Positions 9,601 through 26,313 of a stretch of 32,210 nucleotides of DNA are shown piece after piece. The notes beneath the pieces were generated by a model. That model saw nothing but the letters and a program-made list of their open reading frames with translations. It did not search any database and was not told the DNA's origin. Origin of the DNA: Thiogranum sp. (lineage in GTDB: Bacteria > Pseudomonadota > Gammaproteobacteria > DSM-19610); contig JAJDOI010000107.1 in NCBI GenBank assembly GCA_022340245.1, positions 1 to 32,210 of the forward strand, read 5' to 3'. Every line of letters begins with the position of its first letter. The first letter of the stretch is position 1. The position numbers and the translations under genes were made by a program.

Positions 9601-9775
9601 CTACGTTGGCGGCAGCCCCAGAATAGGTGGTTTCCACCGACACCACCGGCGGGTCGATGTCCGGGTATTCGCGCAGCGGCAGGCGGTCATAGGCCACCAG
9701 ACCGAAGGCGATGAGCAGCAGCGACAGGACCGAGGCGAACACCGGCCGGGTAATGGAAATGTCGGACAGGATCAT
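6668..9775 (-). CDS. RND efflux permease, system B (HAE1 family)
   Basis: Inner-membrane multidrug-type RND pump of 1035 residues. It has the canonical HAE1 hallmarks: start MILSDISITRPVFA, porter-domain signature LREYPDIDPPVVSVET, TM4 motif IGLVVDDAIVVIEN with Asp 401-402, and TM10 GLAAKNGILIVEF with the relay lysine at 924, so the AcrB-like proton path is complete. The ATG at 9775 overlaps the adaptor stop (ATGA). No outer-membrane channel gene accompanies this pair, so it probably shares a TolC-type protein from a neighbouring system or elsewhere. The substrate class (amphiphilic drugs, dyes or lipids) follows from the family only. Confidence 0.95.
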   Translation of the reverse strand: MILSDISITRPVFASVLSLLLIAFGLVAYDRLPLREYPDIDPPVVSVETTYSGAAANVVENRVTELIEDRISGVEGIRFIESSSEDGRSVINVEFEIGRDIDAAANDIRDRVSTILDDLPDEADPPEIQKVDSNEDVIMWLNLASDRMSVPELTDYADRYLVDRFSVLDGVARVRVGGGQVYAMRIWLDRRALAARNLTVADVEAALRAENLELPAGSIDSAARQFTVRTERSFHNAADFSRLVVARGDDGYLVRLADVARVERGTAEDRLFFRGNGVPMVGVGIIKQSTANTLAVAKAAKAEMARINAGLPEGMALKQSYDSSVFVEGAIHEVYKTLFIAIGMVVGVIYLFLGSARATLVPAVTVPVSLVATFLVLLALDYSINMLTLLALVLAIGLVVDDAIVVIENIHRRMEEYGESRLVAAFRGTRQVGFAVIATTVVLVAVFVPIAFLQGNIGRLFAEFAITMAAAVSFSSFVALSLSPMLASKVLPPAGSRARLSHAVDQAFAKVRRGYHVTLQAALRHAWVVALAFAGILGGSAWLFEQVPDEYAPKEDRGVFYLMVTGPEGSSYQYIAAYMTEIEQRMMPLVESGEISRLLVRAPRGFGNFDIFNTGIVINVLNDWSERRSAWKIMEDVRQRLKDLPGVRVFPVMRQGFGARIQKPVQFVIGGGTYEELAQWRDTLVEKINANNPGLVGLDWDYKETKPQLRVVIDYDRAAELGVTVGTIGRTLETMLGSRRVTTYIDAGQEYDVILEGERSAQRTPTNMENIYVRSDRTRQLIPLSNLVHIEEFADSLKLNRYNRVRAITLEANLADGVALGSALSRLEKMVRDNLPGSVIIDYKGQSRDYKYAGGSIMFAFLLGIAVVFLVLAAQFESWIHPLVIMFTVPLAMAGALLGLYLTGQTLNLYSQIGLIMLVGLAAKNGILIVEFANQLRDAGQPFREALVEAADVRLRPIVMTGITTAAGSLPLLLSSGAGTETRTVIGTVILAGILAATLFTLYVVPVAYDLLARHTGSPQRVRRQLDAELATKQE

Positions 9776-10872
9776 TTTGCGCTACCGCCGCCGGTGGTCG
9801 ATTCCAGCAGCTCGTGCAGCGGCCGGCTGCCGTCGTCGACTGCGCCGATGACCACCTGCTGACCCGGGCGCACCTTGAGCGTGCCGTGGGTAATCACCTG
9901 TTCTCCCGGTGTCAGCCCGCTGACCACCTCGACCTCACCCGGGCGCCGCCCGCCGATGCGTATTTCGCGGCGTACCACCTTGTTGCCGTCGGCCGGATCC
10001 ACCAGCAGTACAAACTGCTGGTCCCCCAACGGCATTAGCGCTTCTTCCGGAATCACAATCGCCTGGCGTGGTGTTTTCAGCAGCTGTACCTGCATCAGCA
10101 TGCCGGGCTTGAGTATCCGCTCAGTGTTGGGCAGCACGGCGCGCACACGGATCGCCCGGGTTGCGGTATCGACGCGGCTGTCGACGGCCTTGACGCTACC
10201 CTCGAAGCGACGCCCCGGGTAGGCCCGGGCGGTGGCCAGCACATCGAGCCCGGGCCGGAGGACATCCAGGTAGGTCGCCGGCACCCCGAACTCCAGTTTC
10301 ATCACCGAGTCGTCGTCCAGCGTGGTGATCAGGTCGCCGGGTTCGACAAGCGCGCCGACACTGAGGTCGCGCAGTCCCAGCACGCCGGCAAACGGTGCCT
10401 TGATGAGCCGGTCGGCGAGCCGCGACTCGATGGCGGCCAGGCGGGCCCTGGCGGTTTCCCACTCGCGCTTGCGTTCGTCCAGCAGTGACTTGGCGGCGGT
10501 GCCCTGGGTCTCCAGCGACAGCACACGCTGGTACTGCCGGTAGGCTTCGTTCAGCGTGGCGCGCGCCTCTTCCAGCTGGGCGTGCTCCTCGCCGCTGGTC
10601 ATCTCCACCAGCACCTGGCCTTTGTCGACGCGGTCGCCGTCGTCGAAATGGATGGCGCTGACCGTTTCGGTGACTGCCGCTGTGAGTTCCACCGATTCAT
10701 TGGCGGTCAGCGTGCCGATTGCTTCGATGCGGTCGGTGAACTGATCCAGGCGCGCCGGCGACACGATGACACGGGTGGCGGGTTGTTGTTCAGCGTCGGC
10801 GGCCTGCAGCGGCGTGCTCACGCCGCCGAGCAACAGCGCGGCAACCGCTGCGATGAATGCGGAAAGCCTCAT
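9772..10872 (-). CDS. RND periplasmic adaptor, system B
   Basis: Adaptor of 366 residues for the system B permease. The start is ATG 10872, preceded by CGGAG at good spacing and giving a clean signal peptide (MRLSAFIAAVAALLLGG, cleavage near LQA before ADAEQQ). The frame stays open 86 codons further upstream, but that stretch is not protein-like and runs through a REP element, so it was excluded. Domain order: lipoyl half (VSAIHFDDGDRVDKGQVLVEM), helical hairpin at about 100-150, second lipoyl half (APFAGVLGLRDLSVGALV), beta barrel, then a membrane-proximal domain ending in a Ser/Gly-rich tail. It is the first intact gene of its transcript. The PepSY/two-component genes diverge from it across 10873-11268. 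Confidence 0.93.
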   Translation of the reverse strand: MRLSAFIAAVAALLLGGVSTPLQAADAEQQPATRVIVSPARLDQFTDRIEAIGTLTANESVELTAAVTETVSAIHFDDGDRVDKGQVLVEMTSGEEHAQLEEARATLNEAYRQYQRVLSLETQGTAAKSLLDERKREWETARARLAAIESRLADRLIKAPFAGVLGLRDLSVGALVEPGDLITTLDDDSVMKLEFGVPATYLDVLRPGLDVLATARAYPGRRFEGSVKAVDSRVDTATRAIRVRAVLPNTERILKPGMLMQVQLLKTPRQAIVIPEEALMPLGDQQFVLLVDPADGNKVVRREIRIGGRRPGEVEVVSGLTPGEQVITHGTLKVRPGQQVVIGAVDDGSRPLHELLESTTGGGSAK

Positions 10873-10882
10873 AGCGCTCCGG

Positions 10883-11074
10883 TTAGGCGGCGACCCCGGT
10901 TGGGCTGAAAAAATTGACATCGATGTACTCCCCGCCCGGCAGCCGGGACGCTGCGGGGTCGTTGCTATAGGAGACGCCCGCCGGCCCGAAGTCAATCCAT
11001 TTTTTTGTGCTGCTATCGGTTGCCGGAAAAATCCCGAACCGTAGGTTGGGCTGAGCCCAATCTGCGGTTTGCAC
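10883..11074 (-). pseudogene. Coding remnant upstream of the system B adaptor
   Basis: Up to 63 codons are open here, ending at TAA 10883-10885, ten bases before the adaptor ATG. The last 39 or so codons (10886-10999, starting near WIDFGPAGVSYS and ending VNFFSPTGVAA) have strongly biased third positions and look like the C-terminus of a genuine protein. The upstream part is less biased and includes the short REP copy at 11041-11062. The simplest reading is a former first gene of the system B operon that has lost its 5' part. A small intact protein cannot be excluded. The family was not recognised. Confidence 0.4.
11041..11062 (+). repeat. REP-like element, collapsed copy
   Basis: GTAGGTTGGGCTGAGCCCAA has the GTAG head and TTGGGCT/AGCCCAA arms of the other copies in the window, but the loop between the arms is reduced to one base. 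It lies within the gap 10873-11268. The rest of that gap holds the coding remnant, probable divergent promoter DNA and the second REP copy. Confidence 0.7.
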
Positions 11075-11223
11075 AGGACGTGCGTTCCGCAGGTATTGTC
11101 AGGCACCCGGAAATTTAAGTCTGGGTTCATGTTCGGCGCGCATGCTTTTCCCGTGACAACAGGTTACCGGTGACGAATCCGCTCAGAGCGCGGGGTTTTA
11201 CCGGCCATGGGCGAAATGAACCC

Positions 11224-11266
11224 AGAGGTGACGATGAACACTGGCGAACACCGTAGGTTGGGCTGA
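11224..11266 (+). other. Probable original start of the PepSY gene, now a truncated leader ORF
   Basis: AGAGG at 11224-11228 sits five bases before ATG 11234. That ATG opens only ten codons (MNTGEHRRLG) before a TGA at 11264-11266 created by the REP sequence. Deleting 11251-11282 joins it in frame to the signal peptide of the PepSY protein. The TGA lies two bases before the GTG now used, which suggests reinitiation or coupling. Confidence 0.55.
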
Positions 11267-11282
11267 GCGTGCGAAGCCCAAC
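11251..11282 (+). repeat. REP-like element inserted at the PepSY gene start
   Basis: A GTAG head followed by TTGGGCT (11258-11264) and AGCCCAA (11275-11281) arms around an 11-base loop, 32 bp including the two flanking C bases. It matches the copies at 26236 and 26284. GTAG-headed imperfect hairpins are the known signature of REP elements moved by RAYT-type transposases. No such transposase is in the window. Confidence 0.8.
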
Positions 11283-11643
11283 AATCTTCAGCTTGATAGC
11301 GCTGCTGGCTTGGGGCACCCTGTGGGCGCCGGTGTCGGGCGGCGCTGCCGGGCACGGCGGCTGTGGGAGCGAGAGCCGTACCTCGCCGCTGCGGCCGTAT
11401 TATGCGACCCGCGAGTTCGATAGCGTTCGCCAGTTGCAGGAGCAGGGCGATATCCTGCCGCTGCGTGCGATTCTCGCGCGCGCGAGAGAGAATCGCCCCG
11501 GCCGCGTACTGGATACCCGCCTGGAGAGGGAGCGCGATCGTTACGTTTATGCCATTGAGTTGGTGGACGACGGCGGACAGGTGTGGGAGCTGAAACTCGA
11601 CGCAAGCACCGCCGAGTTGCTGGAGGATCACCAGGAGGACTGA
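11269..11643 (+). CDS. PepSY-domain periplasmic protein linked to a two-component system
   Basis: A 124-residue secreted protein with an N-terminal signal peptide (FSLIALLAWGTLW, cleavage after the Gly/Ala-rich VSGGAAG region). A single PepSY-type fold spans about 45-120: a helix with LPLRAILARARE, then strands in VYAIELVDDGGQVWELKLDA. Proteins of this kind sit beside OmpR/PhoP-type regulators and may tune the kinase from the periplasm. It ends two bases before the response-regulator GTG, so the three plus-strand genes form an operon. The only in-frame start before the hydrophobic core is GTG 11269, inside a REP element and without a normally spaced Shine-Dalgarno. The true ancestral start is probably ATG 11234, cut off by the REP. 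Expression may therefore be weak or dependent on reinitiation. Confidence 0.8.
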   Translation: MRSPTIFSLIALLAWGTLWAPVSGGAAGHGGCGSESRTSPLRPYYATREFDSVRQLQEQGDILPLRAILARARENRPGRVLDTRLERERDRYVYAIELVDDGGQVWELKLDASTAELLEDHQED

Positions 11644-11644
11644 A

Positions 11645-12307
11645 GTGCGACTGCTGCTCGCCGAAGACGACCAGGATCTGGGGCCCCGCCTGAAACGCTA
11701 TCTCGATCGCCAGGGCTTTGCCGTCGATCTTTTCGACAACGGCGTCGATGCGGGTTTTTACGGCAGCGAAACCGCGTATGACGTGATTGTGCTGGACCTC
11801 GGACTCCCCGGCCGTTCCGGCCTGAGCGTTCTCGAAGACTGGCGCCGCGGCGGCATCAAGACCCCGGTGCTTGTCCTCACCGCGCGGGACACCTGGCAGG
11901 AAAAGGTCCAGGGTCTGCAGAAGGGCGCCGACGACTACCTGACCAAACCCTTTCACGAAGAAGAGCTGCTGGCACGGCTGCAAGCCCTGATACGGCGCAA
12001 TGCCGGCCTGGTGGGCGAGTCGCTGGCGGTGAACGGCTGGGTTCTGGATGAAGAAACCCAGTCAGTCAGCAGGGACGACCAGTGCTGGCAGCTGACCGGT
12101 ATCGAATTCCGCCTGCTGCGCTATTTCATGCTGCATCCGGGACATATTCTGTCCAAATCCCGCCTCACCGAACACGTTTACGAGCAGGACGCCGACAAGG
12201 ACAGTAACGTTATCGAAGTCTATGTGAATCGCCTGCGGCAGAAACTGGGCAATGACATCATCACCACCCGGCGCGGGCAGGGCTACATTTTCGGGGAGTT
12301 TTCTTGA
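11645..12307 (+). CDS. OmpR/PhoP-family response regulator
   Basis: Transcription factor of 220 residues. The receiver domain (1-115) has the acidic pocket E7-D8-D9, phosphoacceptor D51 in VIVLDLGLP, T79 and K101 in DDYLTKPF. A winged-helix effector domain follows (about 125-218), with LTGIEFRLLRYFMLHPG and the C-terminal VNRLRQKLG...TTRRGQGY signature of the OmpR class. GTG 11645 has AGGAGG at 11633-11638. The stop overlaps the kinase start (TTGA). It probably controls the efflux genes on either side (systems B and C) and its own operon. This rests on position, and no clear binding site was identified. Confidence 0.93.
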   Translation: MRLLLAEDDQDLGPRLKRYLDRQGFAVDLFDNGVDAGFYGSETAYDVIVLDLGLPGRSGLSVLEDWRRGGIKTPVLVLTARDTWQEKVQGLQKGADDYLTKPFHEEELLARLQALIRRNAGLVGESLAVNGWVLDEETQSVSRDDQCWQLTGIEFRLLRYFMLHPGHILSKSRLTEHVYEQDADKDSNVIEVYVNRLRQKLGNDIITTRRGQGYIFGEFS

Positions 12308-13626
12308 ACTCACTGCGTGCCCGGCTCGGGCTGGGCCTGGTCGTCGGCCTGGTGATGACTATCGGGCTGTTGCTTGCAATTGCCGGGTTTTCCATGCACA
12401 AGCTGATGGAGCACCAGGTGGCGTCGCGGCTCGCCCATGACGGTGACACGCTGCTGGCCGACCTGACAGTCAGGCCGGATGGTACGGTCGGCCTGGACGC
12501 CAAGCGGATTCAGGCCATCTATCACCAGCCGTTTTCCGGGCACTATTTTCTCATCGAGGTCGACGGGCAGACGATCCGTTCGCGGTCCCTCTGGGATGAA
12601 ACGCTGCCGGTGCCCCAGGGCAAAGCGGGTGAGGTGATTCTGCGTCACATCAGCGGCCCGGAGCAGCAACCGCTGCTGCTATGGTCGGGGAGTTTCCGCA
12701 AGCAGGGTCGCCTGGTGCGACTCGCGGTTGCCGAAGATCTGTACGCCCTGCAGTCCGGTGCGCGCCGTGTGTGGTGGCAGCTGCTGGGCTGGTCCGCGGC
12801 CCTGGTTGTATTTGTGGTGCTGATCCAGCGGGCCATTATTGCGCGTTCGCTGCGACCGGTCGCCGACGTGGTCGAGGACGTGGTCCGTCTGGAGCGCGGC
12901 GAGGTCAGCGCCCTGCGCGAACAGGTGCCGCAGGAGGTGCTGCCGCTGGTACAGGAGATCAACAGGCTGTTGCAGCGCCAGCAGCAGCGTCTGCTGCGCT
13001 CGCGTGAAGCCGTGGGCAACATGGCGCATGCCATCAAGACACCACTGACACTGTTGCAGCAGCTCGCGGCCGAAACAACCCGGGATTCTGACCAGGACAC
13101 GCGGCGCCAGCTGGAACACTATATACAGCGTATCAACGAGCTGGTGGATACCTCGCTGCGCCGGGCGCGCATCGCCGGCGACAGTCTCGGCACCACGCGA
13201 TTCGATGTCCGGCAGGACTTGCCGGTGCTGGTGGACACCGTCGTGCGCCTGCACCGTGACAAGGCAATCGACTTCCAGCAGCGGTTGAACGAGGTCGATA
13301 CGCTGCCGCTGGAACAGCAGGACGGCATGGAGTTGCTGGGTAACCTGCTGGACAACGCCTGGAAATGGGCAAACCACAGGGTGCACCTGGCCATTGACGG
13401 CAGCGGCGCGTCCTGCGTGATTACGATTGAAGACGACGGGCCCGGTGTCGAGGACGAACAGGTGCGCCGGTTGATGCAACGCGGTGTACGCCACGATGAA
13501 AGCACCCAGGGGCACGGTATCGGACTGTCGATCGTCAAGAGCCTGGTCGAGGCCCTGGGTGGATCGATCGAGTTCGGCCGCTCGGCGGCGCTCGGTGGTT
13601 TGCAGGTGGTCGCCTATTTCAAGTGA
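12304..13626 (+). CDS. Sensor histidine kinase (PhoQ/QseC-like)
   Basis: Membrane kinase of 440 residues pairing with the regulator it overlaps by four bases (TTG 12304). TM1 at about residues 9-31 and TM2 at about 158-178 bracket a periplasmic sensor region of about 125 residues. A HAMP-like linker with RSLRPVADVVEDV follows. The dimerisation helix carries the phosphoacceptor H242 in GNMAHAIKTPL. The catalytic domain has an N box (NLLDNAWKWA), G1 (DDGPGVED) and G2 (GHGIGLSIV). The ligand is unknown, and a metal or envelope signal is plausible given the PepSY protein and metal-efflux neighbours. Its last 13 bases overlap the 3' end of the opposite-strand DUF3240 gene. Confidence 0.93.
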   Translation: MNSLRARLGLGLVVGLVMTIGLLLAIAGFSMHKLMEHQVASRLAHDGDTLLADLTVRPDGTVGLDAKRIQAIYHQPFSGHYFLIEVDGQTIRSRSLWDETLPVPQGKAGEVILRHISGPEQQPLLLWSGSFRKQGRLVRLAVAEDLYALQSGARRVWWQLLGWSAALVVFVVLIQRAIIARSLRPVADVVEDVVRLERGEVSALREQVPQEVLPLVQEINRLLQRQQQRLLRSREAVGNMAHAIKTPLTLLQQLAAETTRDSDQDTRRQLEHYIQRINELVDTSLRRARIAGDSLGTTRFDVRQDLPVLVDTVVRLHRDKAIDFQQRLNEVDTLPLEQQDGMELLGNLLDNAWKWANHRVHLAIDGSGASCVITIEDDGPGVEDEQVRRLMQRGVRHDESTQGHGIGLSIVKSLVEALGGSIEFGRSAALGGLQVVAYFK

Positions 13627-26235: not shown

Positions 26236-26267
26236 GTAGGTTGGGCTGAGCGCGGCGAAGCCCAACG
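26236..26267 (+). repeat. REP element, left member of an inverted pair
   Basis: A GTAG head, TTGGGCT and AGCCCAA arms and a GC-rich loop, the same family as the copy at 11251. Together with the inverted copy at 26284-26313 it forms a REPIN/BIME-like unit with a spacer of about 16 bases. The unit lies exactly between the two copies of the permease 3' end. Confidence 0.8.
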
Positions 26268-26283
26268 GTCAACCGCCCGGTGT

Positions 26284-26313
26284 CGGGCTTCGCAGCGCTC
26301 AGCCCAGCCTACG
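26284..26313 (-). repeat. REP element, right (inverted) member of the pair
   Basis: Read on the minus strand it begins CGTAGGCTGGGCTGAGC and continues to GAAGCCC, matching the left member with a few substitutions. It ends eight bases before copy 2 of the permease tail begins. Confidence 0.78.

Follow-up and report, generated by a model that had tools for sequence, protein, structure and literature searches.

The PepSY-domain gene that heads a signalling operon in the analysed DNA has very probably been split at its start by a REP element, and it is reasonably likely that the gene is now translated by termination at a TGA and reinitiation at a GTG which both lie within this element. The DNA examined was a single contig of 32,210 nucleotides (C199, hereafter the window) from the 3.41 Mb genome of a presumably environmental Thiogranum species (G000). 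The operon carries the genes for a PepSY protein, a response regulator and a histidine kinase in this order, as derived from gene order and Pfam hits (Table 1). From GTG 11269 the PepSY frame runs through 124 open codons without a second lesion and with its domain intact, and the N-terminus of the predicted protein is hydrophobic, as read by eye.

Table 1. Features of the PepSY operon and of the REP copy at its head (positions in the window; SD, Shine-Dalgarno-like site).
Feature	Positions	Strand	Remarks
AGAGG, SD-like site of the displaced start	11224..11228	+	best anti-SD pairing -7.1 kcal/mol, spacing 3
10-codon leader ORF, ATG 11234 to TGA 11264-11266	11234..11266	+	probably displaced PepSY N-terminus; orthologue-like spacing from ATG to signal core
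Apparent insert, CC + REP, 32 bp	11251..11282	+	skipping it restores one frame; edges uncertain
REP, GTAG-tagged, 30-nt variant with 8-nt loop, single copy	11253..11282	+	found by pattern and edit searches
REP hairpin	11257..11282	+	arms 11257-11264 / 11275-11282, 8 bp perfect
PepSY-domain gene as now open	11269..11643	+	starts with GTG 11269; Pfam PF03413, E 3.7e-09
OmpR-type response regulator	11645..12307	+	GTG one base past the PepSY stop; own SD, -10.3 kcal/mol
Sensor histidine kinase	12304..13626	+	TTG overlaps the regulator stop; own SD, -7.6 kcal/mol

Translation from ATG 11234, in a frame that also contains the ATG codons at 11207 and 11216, yields a leader peptide MNTGEHRRLG, whereas skipping positions 11251-11282 results in a single frame reading MNTGEQ-IFSLIALLAW. 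The first-pass annotation had described the AGAGG site, an ATG followed by ten codons up to a TGA inside the REP, and a GTG two bases after that TGA which opens the PepSY frame; all of these coordinates were confirmed on the sequence. Its statement that removal of exactly 32 bp restores the frame into the signal peptide also held, with the qualification that the REP proper comprises 30 nt. In copies with at most two edits and full flanks, a C was found at position -1 in 62 of 89 cases and at -2 in 40 of 89; the CC preceding the GTAG therefore fits a flank preference of the family, which leaves the exact edge of the insert uncertain. The net 32 bp of the insert place the TGA in the original frame and shift the remainder. 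The 5' arm of the hairpin ends with the first base of this TGA, and GTG 11269 lies between the arms. An in-frame TAG at 11254 blocks any upstream extension of the PepSY frame, which leaves GTG 11269 as its earliest ATG, GTG or TTG. The first five residues from this codon, MRSPT, would derive from the REP and a single flanking base and carry positive charge before the hydrophobic core, so that secretion need not suffer, as judged by eye.

The element shows the hallmarks of a GTAG REP, namely the sequence GTAGGTTGGGCT...AGCCCAAC with GTAG at one end, perfect arms of 8 bp and a short loop, and its family occurs in many dispersed and mostly intergenic copies. A search with the 31-nt consensus at up to 3 mismatches returned 83 places in the genome and none with the reversed pattern as a control, bearing out the earlier assignment to a mobile type of repeat, and an exact-arm search with variable loop returned 70 places, including the 30-nt copy at 11253-11282. 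At up to 5 edits we counted 130 copies in 268,492 bases from 39 stretches, consisting of the window and 38 fetched stretches, 37 of them around REP places. Outside called genes we found 124 of these copies, with three more at 3' ends, two in gene interiors and one at a 5' end, which is the copy at 11253-11282; these numbers depend on a custom, unbenchmarked codon-usage gene caller and on stretches picked for holding REPs, and thus do not represent a whole-genome census. The previous claim that REPs are rare in coding starts holds for these stretches (1/130), although REPs at the N-termini of ORFs as such have already been published (PMC3733652).

Pairs with GTAG outermost account for 100 of the 130 copies; of the remainder, 7 belong to pairs with inward GTAG, 3 are arranged in direct order and 20 stand alone. 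A pair of the prevalent type is present in the window at 26236-26266 and 26282-26312. For the copy at 11253-11282, a search allowing up to 5 edits detected no partner within 200 bp, so this copy does not form a REPIN doublet. About 190 bp upstream of it, at 11043-11062, we noticed by eye a degenerate REP on the same strand with a deleted loop (GTAGGTTGGGCTGAGCCCAA). The same 31-nt pattern gave only 0-6 places in each of 16 other genomes of the genus, compared to the 83 in G000, indicating that the REP family has expanded in this lineage; the genome of the nearest orthologue of the PepSY gene (G001) contains none, and G003 contains three, located elsewhere. A candidate RAYT gene (L094, 1142-1855, on contig C38 of G000) reached 64.5 bits with Y1_Tnp, over the cut-off of 23, and 74.3 bits with the NCBIfam model REP_Tyr_transpos, under the cut-off of 80. 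No REP of the type at 11253-11282 was detected in the 4 kb stretch holding this gene.

The loop of the copy at 11253-11282, GAGCGTGC (8 nt), was seen once among the 130 copies and is one base shorter than the commonest loop, GAGCGCAGC (9 nt; 34/130). All 130 copies were parsed, and 8-nt loops of this type were found in ten of them, plus one oddly parsed case. Five other copies carry TTG at the position of GTG 11269, three of them with a TGA two bases before (TGA-GC-TTG). The frames opened by these TTG codons extend over 261 and 112 codons in the two cases on contig C88, both antisense to called genes, and over 10 to 33 codons in the remaining three; none of the five continues into a called gene of the same strand. 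The GTG may have arisen by a T-to-G change after insertion or belong to a rare variant inserted as it is, and both origins fit. It is possible that selection favoured it as a rescue of the gene, but since five other copies carry TTG at this place, it need not be a repair. A rescue by deletion of one base from a 9-nt loop was discarded as unneeded, given the 8-nt class elsewhere and its five TTG copies. An assembly error at the loop may also be involved, because the genome consists of 238 contigs with a completeness of 92.42%.

Two further copies inside called genes were considered as REP-supplied starts and rejected. The gene on contig C40, which we take from its N-terminus to code for the alpha subunit of succinyl-CoA ligase, very probably starts downstream of the REP in its start region, pointing to an error of the start call, and the low-scoring ORF on contig C46 was set aside. 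The latter (L063, C46 19744-20058) contains the REP in its 5' part and presumably resembles the C-terminal part of an HxlR-type regulator, and may be a gene cut by a REP.

Among the homologues found, only two orthologues cover the N-terminus of the PepSY protein, L010 with 53% and L011 with 54% identity, and these provided the evidence on the original start. The regulators encoded at both loci are 80-84% identical to that of the window, and the genome of the nearest orthologue is placed in the same genus. The PepSY start is devoid of a REP in both of them, and in both genes an ATG with an open frame is available at the spacing which the first-pass annotation had led us to expect. This spacing between ATG and signal core amounts to six codons (MDTRAV-IFS in L010, MNATAL-SFA in L011), the same as from ATG 11234 if 11251-11282 are skipped (MNTGEQ-IFS). 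Compared with the reading from GTG 11269, the joined reading also gave higher N-terminal BLOSUM62 scores, with 38 vs. 26 against L010 and 29 vs. 20 against L011. Because the starting place of the orthologues lies upstream of the REP, the coding start itself has probably been split, and ATG 11234 was probably the old start, as judged from the orthologous sequences.

When the start region was aligned locally at the DNA level without anchors, no homology emerged, and the only pieces returned were one of 10 bases for L010 and a long gapped one for L011 which starts downstream of the REP. Therefore, we used anchored comparisons, in which the score of the 29-nt block containing SD and ATG was reached by 90 of 5000 single-base shuffles for L010 and by 2583 of 5000 for L011. 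Conservation of the old ribosome-binding site at the DNA level is thus modest with L010 and absent with L011, so that the proposed split is backed by the REP-free orthologues and the six-codon spacing but gains little from the DNA around the old start. Anti-SD energies at the PepSY starts of the orthologues were -10.8 kcal/mol for L010 and -5.5 kcal/mol at a spacing of 11 for L011. Wider searches identified homologues in 3 of 20 genomes at the order level (E of 1e-15 or better) and in 18 of 369 genomes of a sample drawn from the class, the own genome being included in both cases. The 17 other homologues from the class match only from residue 36 or later and therefore cannot inform on the start; searching solved structures with a profile retrieved PepSY-type chains but no information about this region.

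In the window (region 9772-13626), the operon is found at a different genomic place from those in L010 and L011. At both orthologous loci the PepSY gene is preceded by a cytochrome b561-like gene, while in the window the operon is divergent from a neighbour gene resembling an RND efflux adaptor (both named by eye). These different upstream neighbours indicate a relocation of the operon in one of the lineages, and any argument from upstream DNA is weakened by it. The best homologue of the cytochrome b561-like gene in the genome of the window is located on contig C160 (62% identity). Another homologue on contig C162 (L096/L097, 1521-2165) matches in two pieces, with one TAG inside the second.

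Scanning of positions 10860-11400 revealed no sigma-70-like promoter and no terminator, and a function of the REP as a terminator was therefore rejected. Likewise, a known structured RNA was rejected, as a search of Rfam across 10800-11700 yielded no hits up to E 0.1. The region upstream of the leader contains a perfect 11-nt inverted repeat (11120-11130 / 11216-11226, with 85 nt between the arms), whose right arm overlaps the SD of ATG 11234. Simple dinucleotide shuffling of 10873-11233 produced an inverted repeat of this kind within 120 nt in 8 of 1000 cases. It is possible that it represents an operator or leads to an RNA pairing that hides this SD.

The predicted ribosome-binding sites of the operon differ considerably in strength. 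The SD-like stretch of GTG 11269, TAGGTTGGG at a spacing of 6, pairs with the anti-SD at -4.8 kcal/mol, which is weaker than the sites of ATG 11234 and of the operon's own junctions at the regulator and kinase genes (Table 1), whereas the next candidate codon, TTG 11293, reaches only -0.2 kcal/mol. In a predicted fold of 200 nt, GTG 11269 is unpaired with a probability of 0.99, while the mean for its SD-like stretch (11255-11263) is 0.18. The folding energy over 76 nt is not unusual for the base composition (z -1.16), as 30 of 200 shuffled sequences reach an equally stable fold.

A TGA followed two bases later by a GTG places stop and start within a few nucleotides, and this spacing resembles the native junctions between PepSY and regulator genes in this operon family. 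These junctions fall between -4 and +4 nt in 25 of 31 homologous loci and between -4 and +30 nt in 30 of 31, where the filter took the first NTG, so that a small number of junctions scored as -4 probably lie at -1 or +2. The 31 loci comprise L010, L011, 12 of 15 members of one homologue set and the 17 class homologues, including near-duplicates such as L047 and L048; L042 and L043 (repeats of L010 and L011), L056 and most other homologues are outside this count. The REP-derived junction at the operon's head therefore mimics those already native further inside, though with a poorer SD. For E. coli, reinitiation at a gap of +2 nt has been reported to drop by 5, 20 and 70% in the three gene pairs studied (PMC10666635). 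Accordingly, the stop-restart coupling proposed in the first-pass annotation agrees well in geometry and has native counterparts in the operon family, while the actual use of GTG 11269 is what we infer.

In the mechanism we favour, a REP would have entered the PepSY gene a few codons downstream of its original start. Ribosomes would still load at AGAGG and ATG 11234, synthesise the 10-residue leader, open the REP hairpin during its translation and stop at TGA 11264. Direct loading at GTG 11269 is expected to be inefficient, since most of the only SD-like stretch available to it is buried in the stem; translation of the leader would expose this stretch and allow a restart at GTG 11269, two bases past the TGA. 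The predicted product is a PepSY protein beginning with MRSPT and an unchanged signal-peptide core. A lower PepSY dose would be the expected outcome, with possible knock-on effects on the closely spaced regulator and kinase genes.

Other explanations have to be weighed against this reinitiation model; they overlap and are not mutually exclusive, and their probabilities together with that of the best explanation add up to slightly more than one. The insertion may have killed the gene, leaving a young PepSY pseudogene which makes no useful amount of protein and in which GTG 11269 is a chance start, with regulator and kinase starting from their own SDs. We regard this as unlikely, yet as a serious candidate: own SDs are indeed present at both downstream genes, the weak SD of GTG 11269 is partly buried in the stem, and an NTG at this position can be mere REP variation, because five copies carry TTG there and none of these reads into a called gene on its own strand. 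Against a dead gene stand the 124 open codons free of a second lesion, the intact PepSY domain and the permissive +2 geometry of stop and restart. The gene may also be translated independently of the leader by direct initiation at GTG 11269 or TTG 11293. The unpaired position of this GTG in the loop and the anti-SD pairing of TAGGTTGGG at its spacing of 6 would allow it, but the SD-like stretch is mostly paired and TTG 11293 is essentially without SD, which makes this route quite improbable.

Direct initiation would be compatible with a further reading, in which ATG 11234 was never a start, the operon moved in next to unrelated upstream DNA and the REP is 5' untranslated DNA. The relocation of the operon is its main support, as visible in the neighbour gene that differs from the cytochrome b561-like gene of the orthologues, and it also agrees with an upstream similarity to L011 not above that of shuffles and with the suggestion that many N-terminal REPs may be extragenic (PMC3733652). 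On the other hand, ATG 11234 has an SD as well as the predicted six-codon spacing and frame, and its SD/ATG block exceeds most shuffles in the comparison with L010, so we judge this reading to be decidedly unlikely. Finally, ribosomes might join the leader frame to the PepSY frame by a -1 frameshift across the REP. The PepSY frame indeed is -1 relative to the leader, and both overlap between TAG 11254 and TGA 11264; because the usable overlap is about 8 bases and lacks a slippery heptamer of the type X XXY YYZ (by eye), we set this option aside as hardly credible, and the hairpin moreover overlaps the slip window instead of following it.

If the proposed restart is real, a non-coding mobile repeat would have been turned into a start region while the gene survived. 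The gene concerned is the first of a signalling operon, in which dosage ought to be important. For REPs at gene starts, such a case would also separate mis-annotated starts from true insertions, two situations that are difficult to distinguish, and it bears on the question whether REP hairpins can act as translational couplers. As a rather speculative extension, which we consider doubtful, the REP subclass with 8-nt loops (TGA-GC-NTG) might represent a portable stop-restart cassette: landing in a suitable 5' coding frame, such a REP would end the native frame, offer a start two bases further on, within a hairpin unfolded by the translating ribosome, and be kept here as a translational dimmer of PepSY.

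Among the top-ranked matches of our open-literature searches, PMC3733652 came closest, describing REPs at N-termini of ORFs, inside ORFs and as a source of stop codons, and no report of a REP supplying a restart codon was found. A REP landing just after a gene start, with a probable restart inside it, is an unusual, but not an unprecedented kind of change. The family described here shares with the published GTAG REPs (PMC3733652) the GTAG end, the stem (8 bp here, 5-13 bp in the paper), a short loop (2-20 bp in the paper), a copy number above 100, and the mostly intergenic location in mostly inverted pairs. In that report many N-terminal cases are suspected to be untranslated, since the homologues start downstream, whereas the starting place of both orthologues lies upstream of the REP in our case. 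The prevalence of pairs with GTAG outermost (100/130) corresponds to the organisation of REPINs (PMC3116915), from which the copy at 11253-11282 differs as a singlet; since singlets are considered there to be immobile leftovers of former pairs, the insertion may have involved a pair of which one half was later lost.

The junction itself resembles known termination-reinitiation pairs in having stop and start two bases apart, but is formed by a mobile repeat and a 10-codon frame instead of two genes (PMC10666635). The operon resembles the DbfQRS system of Vibrio cholerae, with the gene for a small PepSY protein immediately preceding those for regulator and kinase, as likened by gene order and Pfam hits. 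There, the small secreted PepSY protein binds the sensor domain of the kinase and pushes it towards phosphatase activity, and the regulator is fully phosphorylated without it; such modules are reported to be widespread (PMC12714742). By analogy with DbfQ only, less PepSY protein might shift the kinase of the window away from its phosphatase state; the accessible part of PMC12714742 describes the DbfQRS module without a REP or an altered start. A further parallel concerns repeats within genes. Rickettsia palindromic elements are read through in frame, whereas the repeat analysed here brings a stop plus a new start. Common to both is a palindromic repeat inside a coding region (cited in PMC3733652).
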